The position numbers were made by a program, and so were the translations under genes. The notes under the pieces are model-generated. The model was not told the DNA's origin. It searched no databases and was given only the letters and a program-made list of their open reading frames with translations. This document shows positions 26,249 to 45,546 of a stretch of 64,000 nt of DNA, in pieces. The stretch's first letter is position 1. The number at the start of each line of letters is the position of its first letter. The DNA comes from Leuconostoc suionicum. GTDB taxonomy: Bacteria > Bacillota > Bacilli > Lactobacillales > Lactobacillaceae. The stretch is from NCBI RefSeq assembly GCF_001891125.1, contig NZ_CP015247.1:638501-702500 (forward strand), written 5' to 3'.

Positions 26249-26263
26249 TACTGGATATATCAG

Positions 26264-26290
26264 GAATCAGTTTTGAACTGGTTCTTTTTT
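26264..26290 (+). terminator. Rho-independent terminator after the aldo/keto reductase
   Basis: GAATCAGTT paired with AACTGGTTC around a 3-nt loop, followed by TTTTTT. Confidence 0.85.
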
Positions 26291-26324
26291 GTTGTCAAAA
26301 AAAGAAACCGTTTACAATCCAAAC

Positions 26325-26439
26325 GTTCGACAAATTTTGTCAGATTGTGAAAATGTCCATCAAAAAGCGAACTATATCTTCGTTTATTATAAAAATATAA
26401 TTTAAAAACATACAAAATGGCCAACATAATTGTTAAACT
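26325..26439 (+). promoter_or_regulatory. purD-fhs promoter with two PurBox-like sites
   Basis: GTTCG at 26325-26329 (inside AACGTTCG), CGAAC at 26368-26372 and an extended -10 TGT-TAAACT (hexamer 26434-26439), with no good -35. Exactly the same spacings (43 and 66 bp between starts) occur at purE. CGAAC is the core of the PurR-binding PurBox of Firmicutes. With a start site about 7 nt after the -10, the CGAAC centre lies near -76. A third half-site, CTTCG at 26378-26382, is close by. Confidence 0.7.
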
Positions 26440-26468
26440 ATAGTTATTAACAAACAAAGAGGCCAGTC

Positions 26469-27713
26469 ATGACAAAAGTTTTGATTATCGGTTCTGGTGC
26501 ACGTGAGCATGCGCTAGCACAAACATTTTTAAAAAGTCCACAAGTAGATGAAGTCATTGTTGCACCCGGGAATGATGGGATGTCAGATGACCATTTACGA
26601 CGAGTTGAAATTCCAGTGACTAATTTAATTGAACTAAGGGATTTCGCAAACCAAGAACACGTTGATCTAACGTTTGTTGGCAATGAAGAGCCGTTGACAC
26701 TAGGTATCGTTGACGTATTTACAGAAGCCTCCTTAAAAATATTTGGTCCAACAAAAAAGGCAGCCCAACTTGAAGGTTCTAAATCATTTACGAAGAACAT
26801 TCTTCAAAAGTATAATATTCCAACTGCACAATCACTGACCGTAACTTCTTTGAATGAAGCTAATCAAGCTATTGCAAAATTTGGTTTTCCAATTGTTTTT
26901 AAGCTCGATGGCTTGGCTTTGGGCAAGGGGGTAACTATTATTGAAAATGCCGCTGATGCTCAAGAATATTTGGAAAAGTTATACACGCAAAATGCTGATG
27001 CCAAATTGGTTATTGAGGAATATCTGAAAGGAGTTGAGTTTTCTGTATTCACATTAGTAGGTCCAAACGGTGTGATGACTAATGCGCCTTTAGCACAAGA
27101 CCATAAACGTCGTTTTGATGGTGATGAAGGACCTAATACTGGTGGAATGGGGGCTTATAGCCCAGTGAAATGGATTTCAGATCAAATTCGTCAGGAAACT
27201 ATTGAAACTTTAGTTAACCCAACAGTGAAAGCAATGGTTGAAGAGCATGCGCCATTTACTGGTGTCTTATATACAGGCGTCATGTTAACTGAAGAAGGAC
27301 CTAAAGTCATTGAATTTAATGTTCGATTTGGTGACCCTGAGGCGCAAGTAGTATTACCTCAATTTGAGGGTGATTTTTATCAATTAATTTTGCAACTATT
27401 GTCAGGTGAAAAACCAACGTCACATTGGCAAGATGAAGAAGTGTATGTTGGGGTTGTTCTAGCAGCTAAGGGTTATCCTGAACGTCCTCAGAAAGGAGCA
27501 ATCGTTCCTCAAATTCCATTAGTGACTAATTATGCTGGCGTCAAATTGGCGAACACGGTGTTGCGTGCAAATGGTGGGCGTGTAGCCACTGTTATTGCCC
27601 ATGACAAAAATGTGAAATTGGCACAAGAAAAAGTTTATAATGTATTAGATAAGACACCGATGGATTTACAATATCGTCACGATATTGCTTATCAAGCTGT
27701 TCAAAAATTATAA
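26469..27713 (+). CDS. purD: Phosphoribosylamine--glycine ligase (GAR synthetase)
   Basis: Second step of de novo purine synthesis: joins phosphoribosylamine and glycine using ATP. The 414-aa ATP-grasp protein has the N-terminal IGSGAREHALA (about 6-16) and APGNDGM, the ATP-grasp core with FKLDGLALGKGV near 140, DHKRRFDGDEGPNTGGMGAYSP near 210-231, and FNVRFGDPEAQV near 284. It lies apart from the main pur operon, paired with fhs (12-bp gap) under a PurBox promoter. The purE operon has no second purD, so this is the pathway's copy in the window. Confidence 0.97.
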   Translation: MTKVLIIGSGAREHALAQTFLKSPQVDEVIVAPGNDGMSDDHLRRVEIPVTNLIELRDFANQEHVDLTFVGNEEPLTLGIVDVFTEASLKIFGPTKKAAQLEGSKSFTKNILQKYNIPTAQSLTVTSLNEANQAIAKFGFPIVFKLDGLALGKGVTIIENAADAQEYLEKLYTQNADAKLVIEEYLKGVEFSVFTLVGPNGVMTNAPLAQDHKRRFDGDEGPNTGGMGAYSPVKWISDQIRQETIETLVNPTVKAMVEEHAPFTGVLYTGVMLTEEGPKVIEFNVRFGDPEAQVVLPQFEGDFYQLILQLLSGEKPTSHWQDEEVYVGVVLAAKGYPERPQKGAIVPQIPLVTNYAGVKLANTVLRANGGRVATVIAHDKNVKLAQEKVYNVLDKTPMDLQYRHDIAYQAVQKL

Positions 27714-27725
27714 AGGGAAACAAAC

Positions 27726-29390
27726 ATGCAAACAGATATTGAAATTGCCCAATCCGTTGAAATAAAACCCATTACCGAAATTGCAACTGCTGCAGGGCTG
27801 CAGGCCAATGAAATTGAGCCCTATGGATACGACAAAGCAAAAATTAAATTGGATCCATCTATCGTGCGTAAGCAAGAATTGGGTAAACTGATCTTGGTTA
27901 CGTCAATTAATCCAACTCCCGCCGGTGAAGGAAAATCAACAGTAACGGTTGGTTTGGCTGATGCGCTAAGTTTGGCCGATAAAAAGACGATGATTGCGCT
28001 ACGTGAACCTTCCTTGGGACCTGTGATGGGACTTAAAGGTGGCGCAACTGGTGGTGGCTTTGCGCAAGTTGTTCCAATGGCTGATATTAATTTACATTTT
28101 ACTGGAGACTTCCATGCATTAACATCAGCTCATGATACACTAGCTGCATTACTAGATAATAGTATTCACCAAGGAAATCCACTAAATATTGATCCACGTC
28201 GTATTTTGTGGAAACGCGTAGTAGATATTAATGATCGTGAATTGCGTCATGTTACCGTCGGCTTAGGTGGACCAACTTCAGGCGTTCCGCGTGAAGATGG
28301 TTTTGACATTACTGTAGCTTCTGAATTGATGGCTATTCTAACACTCTCAACTGATTTAATGGATATGAAAGAGCGTATCAAGCGTATTGTTGTTGGTTAT
28401 ACCTACAGCAAAGAACCAGTAACTGTTGCTGATTTAGGTGTTGCAGGAGCCCTAACTGTTTTGTTAAAGGACGCTATCAAACCTAATCTTGTCCAAACGT
28501 TGGTGCACACACCGGCAATTATTCACGGTGGTCCATTCGCTAACATCGCTCAAGGGACTAACTCTATTTTGGCAACCAAAACAGCTCTGAAATTAGCAGA
28601 TTATGTTGTCACGGAGGCGGGATTTGGTGCCGACTTGGGTGGCGAGAAGTTCCTAGATATTAAAGTACCGTTGCTGGGTAAAACGCCAGATACAATTGTT
28701 ATTGTAGCTACTGTACGTGCTTTGAAACATCATGGTGGCGTTGCATTAGCAAATTTGAATAATGAAGATGTCATGGCGCTCAAGAACGGCTTAGAGAATT
28801 TGGGTCAACACCTGACAGCGATGAATCGTTATGGCGTACCAGTGTTAGTAGCCATTAATCGCTTCACTTCGGATACGGAAGCAGAGTTACAGGTCATTAA
28901 AGATTATGTCCAACAATTTGGCGCTACAGCTTATACAACAGAAGTTTGGGCAAAAGGCGGTGCAGGGGCACAAGAGCTGGCTACGGCTGTCATTAAAAAA
29001 TCAGCTCAAGAAACAGATTTTACACCACTATATCAAGCTGACGATTCAGCTATTGATAAACTAAATACTATCGTGCAAACAATATACGGTGGAGATGGTG
29101 TTGAATTATCAACTAAGGCGCAAAAGCAATTACAAGATTTTGAAAAATATGGTTGGGACAAGTTACCAATTATTATGGCAAAAACGCAGTACTCATTTAC
29201 AGATGACGCTAAAAAACTTGGGGCACCTAAAGATTTCAAAATTCATATCCGTGAATTCGTACCGAAACTTGGGGCTGGATTTTTAGTCGCATTAACGGGA
29301 AACATCATGACAATGCCTGGATTACCAAAACATCCAGCGGCTTTGGATATTGATGTTGATGAAAATGGTACAATTACTGGTTTATTTTAA
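27726..29390 (+). CDS. fhs: Formate--tetrahydrofolate ligase
   Basis: Makes 10-formyl-THF from formate, THF and ATP. 10-formyl-THF is the substrate for PurN and PurH, whose genes lie 25 kb downstream. The full-length 554-aa product has the family motifs [20 protein letters not shown] (ATP site, about 59-78), [16 protein letters not shown] (about 96-111) and the conserved C-terminal region [35 protein letters not shown] gives the ribosome site. Co-transcription with purD places formyl-donor supply under the same PurBox control. Confidence 0.97.
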
Positions 29391-44840: not shown

Positions 44841-45016
44841 CGAACGTTCAGTTTTGATGTTTTTGTAAACGCATACATTGCTAACGTTCGGATAAAAATA
44901 AATAAAAGTCAAAAATGTTCGTTATATACGAACTCTTTTTTGATTATTGTGAATTTTCTTATTTTAAAACGAACACAAATGTATAAAAATCTGTTAAATT
45001 GTAATTGTAAACGAAC
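44841..45016 (+). promoter_or_regulatory. purE operon control region with six PurBox-like CGAAC sites
   Basis: CGAAC on the + strand at 44841, 44929, 44970 and 45012, and as GTTCG at 44886 and 44917. The extended -10 is TGT-TAAATT (hexamer 44995-45000) without a recognisable -35. The pair 44886/44929 and this -10 have exactly the spacing seen at purD. Most sites fall about 41-45 bp apart. There is no G-box purine riboswitch and the leader is about 55 nt. Confidence 0.7.
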
Positions 45017-45060
45017 GATAACCTTGCAAATTACAAAGAATGTACACATTGGAGAAGAAT

Positions 45061-45546
45061 ATGCCTCAAGTTGCAGTTGTTATGGGATCAACTAGTGATT
45101 GGTCCAGCATGAAAAAAACGACAGAAATTTTGGATATATTAGGTGTTACTTACGAAAAACATGTCATTTCAGCACACCGCATGCCTCAAGAATTACAAGC
45201 GTTTGGCGCACAAGCAAGAGACAATAAGCTTCAAATAATTATTGCTGGTGCCGGCGGTGCAGCTCATTTGCCTGGTATGCTGGCAGCTAATACGACGCTA
45301 CCAGTTATCGGCGTGCCGATGCAATCACGGGCACTAAATGGACTGGATTCTTTACTCTCTATTGTTCAAATGCCAGCGGGGGTCCCCGTTGCTACGGTTG
45401 CGATAGGCGATGCAGGTGCAAAAAATGCGGCAATTCTAGCTGCGCAAATTATTGCTTTAAATGATGATGACATATTGCAGGCCTTGAATGAATATCGAGA
45501 ACGCCAAACAAAGACTTCTATTGAAAGCGAGGCAGAATTGATATGA
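45061..45546 (+). CDS. purE: N5-carboxyaminoimidazole ribonucleotide mutase
   Basis: Class I PurE: moves the carboxyl group of N5-CAIR to give CAIR. From ATG 45061 (TTGGAGAAG upstream) it is 161 aa; the frame to 45040 includes the binding site and is rejected. Motifs: VVMGSTSDWSSM (about 6-17), SAHRMPQE near 40, and AGAGGAAHLPGMLA near 67-80. First gene of a ten-gene pur operon; its stop overlaps the purK start by 4 bp. Confidence 0.97.
   Translation: MPQVAVVMGSTSDWSSMKKTTEILDILGVTYEKHVISAHRMPQELQAFGAQARDNKLQIIIAGAGGAAHLPGMLAANTTLPVIGVPMQSRALNGLDSLLSIVQMPAGVPVATVAIGDAGAKNAAILAAQIIALNDDDILQALNEYRERQTKTSIESEAELI

Follow-up and report, generated by a model that had tools for sequence, protein, structure and literature searches.

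A conserved PurBox array at the purine promoters of Leuconostoc that probably serves activation by PurR

Introduction

PurR-activated pur promoters carrying the PurBox AWWWCCGAACWWT were reportedly described in Lactococcus lactis by Kilstrup and Martinussen in 1998 and by Jendresen in 2012, and a CGAAC core near -76 presumably marks the activator PurBox of that species. PurR of L. lactis is called an activator in passages of one study (PMC3547956), and an excerpt of another states that purH expression becomes undetectable when the PurBox is deleted (PMC5449655). The Bacillus subtilis operator consists of two inverted 14-bp PurBoxes separated by a 16–17 bp spacer and lying upstream of the -35 element, and the same text discusses DNA wrapping and extended occupancy by PurR, as far as its available sections go (PMC8789054). 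PurR regulons of lactic acid bacteria are known, with purB among the Lactobacillaceae targets in the accessible part of a regulon survey (PMC3616900). Members of one regulator family thus act as repressors in Bacillus and as activators in Lactococcus, which raises the question of how promoters pass from one mode to the other.

The Leuconostoc layout reported here is a variant of the known PurR system. Like that of L. lactis, it combines a PurR homologue with a CGAAC core predicted to lie near -76. It also contains the tiled motif TTC-N8-CGAAC found in excerpts on L. lactis (PMC3547956), which is seen at the purE and formate/nitrite-transporter (FNT) promoters of our genome and not at its purD promoter. 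Relative to L. lactis, the Leuconostoc array would add a box at the -35 position, a box at +7, an outer inverted box 43 bp upstream and a cre-like block, none of which was found described in the literature covered. With B. subtilis the array shares a CGAA core, AT-rich flanks and several dimers per promoter, but its plus-strand boxes are direct repeats at 41–43 bp, it lacks a -35 element and its -10 is extended. The B. subtilis-type pair CGAAC-N22-26-GTTCG is absent from our purE and purD promoter sequences, and boxes upstream of a canonical -35 were not found at these promoters, purD having weak alternatives. The cre-like block resembles known cre sites in its consensus match at a fixed place and in the presence of ccpA in the genome; unlike the usual cre, it forms part of a PurR promoter, whose predicted start lies about 137 bp further on. 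No published description of the layout was found in the literature covered; most subscription papers, including the central L. lactis studies, lie outside it, so novelty is not established.

Results and discussion

The purD and purE promoters share one operator spacing

The window analyzed is a stretch of 64,000 nucleotides of Leuconostoc suionicum, whose genome comprises 2,048,833 bases and its chromosome 2,026,850. A sequence-only reading of this window had claimed that the purD and purE promoters share an exact geometry, with CGAAC 43 bp after GTTCG and an extended -10 hexamer 66 bp after CGAAC. Inspection of the sequence found GTTCG at 26325, CGAAC at 26368 (+43) and the hexamer of TGT-TAAACT at 26434 (+66) before purD, and GTTCG at 44886, CGAAC at 44929 (+43) and the hexamer of TGT-TAAATT at 44995 (+66) before purE, exactly as claimed. 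GTTCG-N38-CGAAC occurs twice in the window against 0.03 expected from 100 shuffles, none of which contained two. The 43/66 geometry is real and not due to chance. Sites resembling cre were scored against the consensus TGWAANCGNTNWCA. The features of the purD promoter and operon are as follows.

26303..26316, plus strand: cre-like (LacI-family type) operator AGAAACCGTTTACA, one mismatch to TGWAANCGNTNWCA, none to the L. plantarum cre consensus (PMC2329647, in part); offset -22 also in relatives
26325..26329, minus strand: outer PurBox half-site GTTCG, from the promoter alignment
26368..26372, plus strand: PurBox half-site CGAAC, offset 43, predicted centre about -76
26386..26408, plus strand: AT-rich UP-element-like block, from the alignment and the UP consensus
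26409..26413, plus strand: CATAC, degenerate counterpart of the -35-position PurBox of our purE and FNT promoters
26431..26439, plus strand: extended -10 TGT-TAAACT, predicted start about 26446
26451..26455, plus strand: CAAAC, one letter off the purE start-site PurBox (offset 126)
26469..27713, plus strand: purD gene (TIGR00877)
27726..29390, plus strand: fhs, formate-tetrahydrofolate ligase (NF010030)

The purE promoter carries the following features.

44841..44845, plus strand: far-upstream CGAAC, offset -45, CGAA kept in 16/20 purE promoters
44864..44877, plus strand: cre-like operator TGTAAACGCATACA
44886..44890, minus strand: outer PurBox half-site GTTCG
44917..44921, minus strand: inner PurBox half-site GTTCG, offset 31; with 44929 it forms GTTCG-N7-CGAAC, which fits the Lactococcus TTC-N8-CGAAC and is also terminator-like
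44929..44933, plus strand: PurBox half-site CGAAC, offset 43, predicted centre about -76
44947..44969, plus strand: conserved block TTGTGAATTTTCTTATTTTAAAA, UP-element-like
44970..44974, plus strand: PurBox CGAAC at the -35 position, 25 bp before the -10 hexamer
44992..45000, plus strand: extended -10 TGT-TAAATT, predicted start about 45007
45012..45016, plus strand: PurBox CGAAC, offset 126, lying at the predicted start; among the 20 purE promoters, CGAA is found at 126 in 19 and at 125 in one
45040..45546, plus strand: purE, first gene of the pur operon (TIGR01162)

Behind the purE promoter, purC scored just under its cut-off and purH was identified as NF002049; the genes between those checked were assigned by position and length alone.

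The half-sites named in the earlier reading are correct, but the purE list was incomplete, since GTTCG at 44917 and CGAAC at 44970, 45012 and 44841 are also present. At the corresponding purD offsets of 31, 84 and 126 stand TCCAT (no box), CATAC (degenerate) and CAAAC (one letter off). The surroundings had been said to differ otherwise; this needs qualifying, as a cre-like 14-mer precedes GTTCG by an equal distance in the two promoters (26303 and 44864). The inner GTTCG, the -35 PurBox, a periodicity of 41–42 bp, the cre-like block and a third copy of the geometry had all been missed.

This third exact 43/66 copy is located near C1:1328034-1328146 (minus strand) of the same genome, upstream of purB and of an FNT gene matching PF01226 (C1:1327227-1327994, minus strand), and it has TTACAATCCAAACGTTCG in common with the purD promoter. 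Loosening the spacing gave no enrichment: GTTCG-N30..46-CGAAC-N50..72-TAAA was found 4 times in this genome against 24 in the reversed control. We therefore used fixed spacing and a profile instead. CGAAC-N36-CGAAC-N17-TGNTA with up to two mismatches was likewise not enriched in this genome (8 matches against 20 reversed); two of the eight are exact (purE and FNT), purD is among those with two mismatches, and the other five, also with two mismatches, are not pur promoters.

The claim that a recognisable -35 is lacking held across the genus: a TTGACA-like element at the usual distance, with at least 4/6 letters, was found in 1 of 56 aligned Leuconostoc promoters, fewer than in shuffled sequence. 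A plain promoter consensus scan gave no site in the purE region (1.4 expected) and five weak promoter-like sites in the purD region (1.3 expected), including TTAAAA-17-CATAAT, whose CATAAT (26425–26430) ends 4 bp before the claimed -10 hexamer. An Rfam search of the purD promoter found no element.

Boxes are retained in Leuconostoc while the spacers drift

A scan of 84,980 species with GTTCG-N16..36-GTTCG-N7-CGAAC-N48..68-TGNTAAA, which allows 441 spacings, matched 68 stretches. Spacing 26/58 was present in 17 of the 18 Leuconostoc matches, the exception (26/57) coming from a record flagged UNVERIFIED. In the remaining 50 stretches there were 51 matches with 40 different spacings, and 26/58 was found in 0/51.

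The layout recurs at the purE, purD, FNT-purB and purB promoters of Leuconostoc, and 56 promoters were aligned (20 purE, 16 of 19 purD, 15 purB, 4 FNT and 1 phnD-like). Counted from the outer GTTCG at 0, the cre-like 14-mer begins at -22, GTTCG at 31, CGAAC at 43, the block TTTGTGAGA...ATTTA spans 61–83, and CGAAC follows at 84, TGn at 106 and the hexamer at 109. The purE promoters additionally carry CGAA at 126 (19/20) and at -45 (16/20) and CGAAC at 167 (11/20). With presence defined as at least 4/5 letters, the boxes are distributed in the aligned set as follows.

Outer box: purE 20/20, purD 11/16, purB 11/15, FNT 4/4, phnD-like 1/1
Inner box: purE 18/20, purD 7/16, purB 10/15, FNT 4/4, phnD-like 1/1
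Box 43: purE 20/20, purD 16/16, purB 12/15, FNT 4/4, phnD-like 1/1
Box 84: purE 20/20, purD 12/16, purB 15/15, FNT 4/4, phnD-like 0/1

The distance from box 84 to the -10 is 25 bp in 56/56, with a placement script that allowed 83–86 and 107–110 only, and that from box 43 to box 84 is 41 bp in 44 promoters, 42 in 11 and 40 in one. The 43/66 spacing is not without departures, to 43/67 in 10/15 purB promoters and one purD promoter and to 43/65 in a single draft genome.

Between purE and the other families, the N26 spacer is 0.40 identical (shuffled 0.34), while the outer box with its AAC reaches 0.96 and box 43 reaches 0.97. Drifting spacer letters between near-fixed boxes mean that the lengths are kept while the letters change. 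Together with the 17 of 18 Leuconostoc matches at one of 441 spacings, this bears out the proposal that the spacing is selected. The geometry could instead be an inherited copy, an ancestral promoter having been duplicated before several genes and its spacing being mere inertia. Conserved blocks are common to the promoters, TTACAATCCAAACGTTCG in purD and FNT being an example, but near-random spacers of constant length between well-kept boxes make inertia very improbable. The promoters may have a common origin; the spacing would then have been maintained by selection.

The view that an outer inverted half-site belongs to the device was borne out in 20/20 purE, 15/19 purB and FNT, 11/16 alignable purD and 14/14 phnD-like promoters. 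The last are 14 further promoters (13 from Leuconostoc and one from genus g8; L204–L217) of phosphate/phosphonate ABC binding protein genes. Each carries the outer GTTCG and, at 31, an inner box that agrees with GTTCG in at least 4/5 letters, and the hexamer lies at 110 in 13 (67 from box 43) and at 109 in one. CGAAC is present at 43 in one, the others having CGG- or CGT-type words at 44; box 84 is present in none and cre in three. This layout indicates that the outer and inner boxes can occur where both cre and the -35 box are missing, and that not every such promoter has the -35 PurBox. In L. lactis, pur genes likewise cluster with a phosphonate transporter, according to passages of PMC3547956.

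With 10.5 bp per turn, the box starts at 0, 31, 43, 63, 84, 126 and 167 deviate from whole turns by no more than 0.1 turn, in a post hoc test in which 63 was our own choice; the periodicity of 41–42 bp was also noticed after the fact.

An FNT-family transporter lies between a PurR-type promoter and purB in 4/19 Leuconostoc genomes. As the purD operon also contains fhs, the uptake of formate and its activation would come under one control.

purE promoters of the family fall into two classes

Profile R1, built without the cre part, recovered three promoters in our genome (purE, purD and FNT, at 83.0, 66.6 and 52.9 bits) among the 150 of 1872 candidates scored; the only other match listed there is a weak reverse-strand overlap of purE. 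R1 matched in 19/19 Leuconostoc genomes and at three promoters of one genome of the neighbouring genus g8, more weakly in g2 and g56, and once weakly in family genus g18 (G309), where no pur gene is evident alongside. In 295 sampled genomes from other families of the order no convincing match was found, the best having an E value of 3.4e-4 under stricter filters. Such a rigid signature also aids the annotation of PurR targets.

We compared 67 script-classified purE promoters from 21 Lactobacillaceae genera. CGAA pairs 41–43 bp apart occur in 28/28 promoters of five genera (g1, g2, g7, g8 and g56) and in 0/39 of the 16 others, and CGAA triples in 26/28 against 0/39. A PurBox replaces the -35, 24–25 bp before an extended -10, in 26/28 against 0/39. 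Conversely, a canonical TTGACA-like -35 downstream of a PurBox is present in 1/28 against 21/39, with two of the 21 (G196 and G220) far upstream of the gene and probably spurious, and with a few of the 39 (e.g. G587 of g39, and G311) lacking any PurBox. In genomes of g5, g37, g40, g49 and g53 the pair CGAAC-N24/25-GTTCG is found, followed in most cases by a TTGAC or TTGAT -35; this pair is the B. subtilis plan as given in sections of PMC8789054.

The layouts sampled within one family thus form two clean classes, so that the switch may become datable, and testable through box swaps. As a tentative reconstruction, which we hold with low confidence, a cis rewiring in the Leuconostoc lineage may have converted -35-bearing, PurR-repressed promoters into ones in which a four-turn PurBox array replaces the -35 and PurR wraps the DNA and activates, while a PurBox-cre module makes CcpA a co-activator and synthesis requires both PRPP and good carbon.

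Activation by PurR is the favoured mode

A PurR (TIGR01743) is encoded in the genome (337 bits against a cut-off of 258.7; 309 bits to B. subtilis PurR 1P4A). With starts predicted from the -10, inverted boxes lie at about -119 and -88 and plus-strand boxes at about -76, -35 and, at purE, +7; successive plus-strand boxes are 41–43 bp, or four helical turns, apart. The CGAAC centre would lie about 76 bp before the predicted start, near the place of the activator PurBox in L. lactis. The missing -35, the extended -10 and PurBoxes near -76 and -35 suggest an activator. From these sequence comparisons, we consider that the Leuconostoc pur promoters are probably activated by PurR and follow one conserved design with an upstream PurBox and a carbon-status input. 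Activation rather than repression, as the earlier reading had it, remains the best fit, and is a reading of promoter sequence.

At high PRPP, PurR would bind the face-aligned array, probably wrapping the DNA between dimers. Instead of a -35, the two boxes near -76 and -35 would then recruit RNA polymerase together with the intervening AT-rich block. The outer box, often accompanied by the cre-like site, would form a dispensable upstream module through which CcpA may add a carbon-status input, probably a positive one.

Other observations pull the opposite way. Our purD promoter has a degenerate -35 box (CATAC), no inner box and weak alternative promoter-like sites nearby. The boxes near -35 and +7 could equally block polymerase. 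PurR might thus repress as in Bacillus, with these boxes obstructing polymerase, PRPP releasing PurR and the extended -10 sufficing alone. The boxes do overlap the -35 and, at purE, the start, and the B. subtilis homologue is a repressor in the account of PMC8789054, as far as its text was available. A comparable position in our own purR promoter is occupied by a single PurBox, TTTCCGAACAATT, 24 bp before TATAAT (L001 2300–2400); this box was counted against activation, together with the repression of L. lactis purR by PurR reported in passages of PMC3547956. However, a repressor needs no loss of the -35, and in sister genera a TTGACA-like -35 still follows the PurBox in 21/39 purE promoters. 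Moreover, few boxes are as well kept as the one near -76 (53/56 at 4/5 letters or more), which lies well upstream of the promoter. Repression is therefore credible but unlikely, and we retain activation. The purR leader of this genome has an inverted CGAAC/GTTCG pair, unlike the biosynthetic promoters.

The block between the two boxes was compared with the UP-element consensus. All 56 promoters average 9.8/14 (shuffled 7.0), with the block 2 bp from the expected place; purE scores 11.4, purB is weaker at 9.0, and FNT is weaker with its best place elsewhere. Two other assignments were rejected. A third inverted PurBox (GTGAG for GTTCG) had insufficient support, the block fitting the UP-element consensus. 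A CodY site was set aside, CodY being listed under Streptococcaceae and not Lactobacillaceae in a flattened table from the accessible part of PMC3616900.

The inner GTTCG-N7-CGAAC raises a different question, namely whether it is mainly the intrinsic terminator of the upstream gene and not an operator. Terminator-like matches occur on both strands at 44917–44933 (2 found against 0.1 expected), a T tract follows the repeat, and at our purD promoter, where the inner pair is missing, another terminator-like stem lies at 26262–26286. The flanks also covary, with a mean of 1.85 consecutive pairs against 1.00 (sd 0.15) for permuted 3' flanks, a permutation that ignores relatedness. On the other hand, flank pairing is absent in 12/33, including our purE and FNT, and the repeat fits the L. 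lactis TTC-N8-CGAAC, described in passages of PMC3547956 as highly specific for purine genes or as upstream of several. A mainly terminating function thus seems improbable, and operator and terminator roles may coexist. In many promoters the flanks change as complementary pairs (AAC/GTT, ATC/GAT, ATA/TAT), in the manner of an RNA hairpin.

The cre-like block suggests a carbon input

A cre-like operator with at least 9/11 letters of TGWAANCGNTNWCA stands at offset -22 in 44/56 promoters, each with an outer box (chance 0.0009 per site). Neither element is present in 9/56, and the outer box alone in 3/56, that is, 3/47 of the outer-box promoters. This 44/9/3 split suggested that cre and outer box are strictly coupled, but the phnD-like promoters weaken the idea, as 11/14 of them have the outer box without cre.

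Against the L. plantarum cre consensus, in the form given in part of PMC2329647, 43/47 outer-box promoters show 0–1 mismatch. At this 14-bp consensus our purE and purD sites have no mismatch and FNT one; mismatches to three other published consensuses number 0–2. The ccpA gene is present in the genome. We therefore suggest, from the sequence matches, that CcpA probably acts at the cre-like site. Another LacI-family protein, such as a sugar or ribose regulator, might bind the block instead: several LacI-family genes are present in the genome (14 matches to the CcpA model, one of them over the cut-off), and LacI-family operators resemble cre (sections of PMC2329647). Given the close consensus match and the presence of ccpA, we judge this a possibility of some weight that is nonetheless doubtful, and keep CcpA as the preferred candidate.

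In L. mesenteroides, purine genes were lower on sucrose than on glucose, for a cause left unexplained in the sections of PMC5691038. In L. rhamnosus without ccpA, 13 purine genes went down and none up in low-nitrogen medium, and purine genes are not listed as enriched in MRS in the corresponding part of PMC12652480. The sucrose drop and the ccpA-deletion result would fit a positive CcpA input and prove nothing for the sites described here. A cre within the promoter may offer an explanation, open to test, of why purine genes fall on sucrose relative to glucose in L. mesenteroides.

In one clade, with genomes G006, G011, G012 and G018, the purD (L048, L053–L055) and purB (L148, L150–L152) promoters both lack the outer box and cre at the usual place, while purE retains them.
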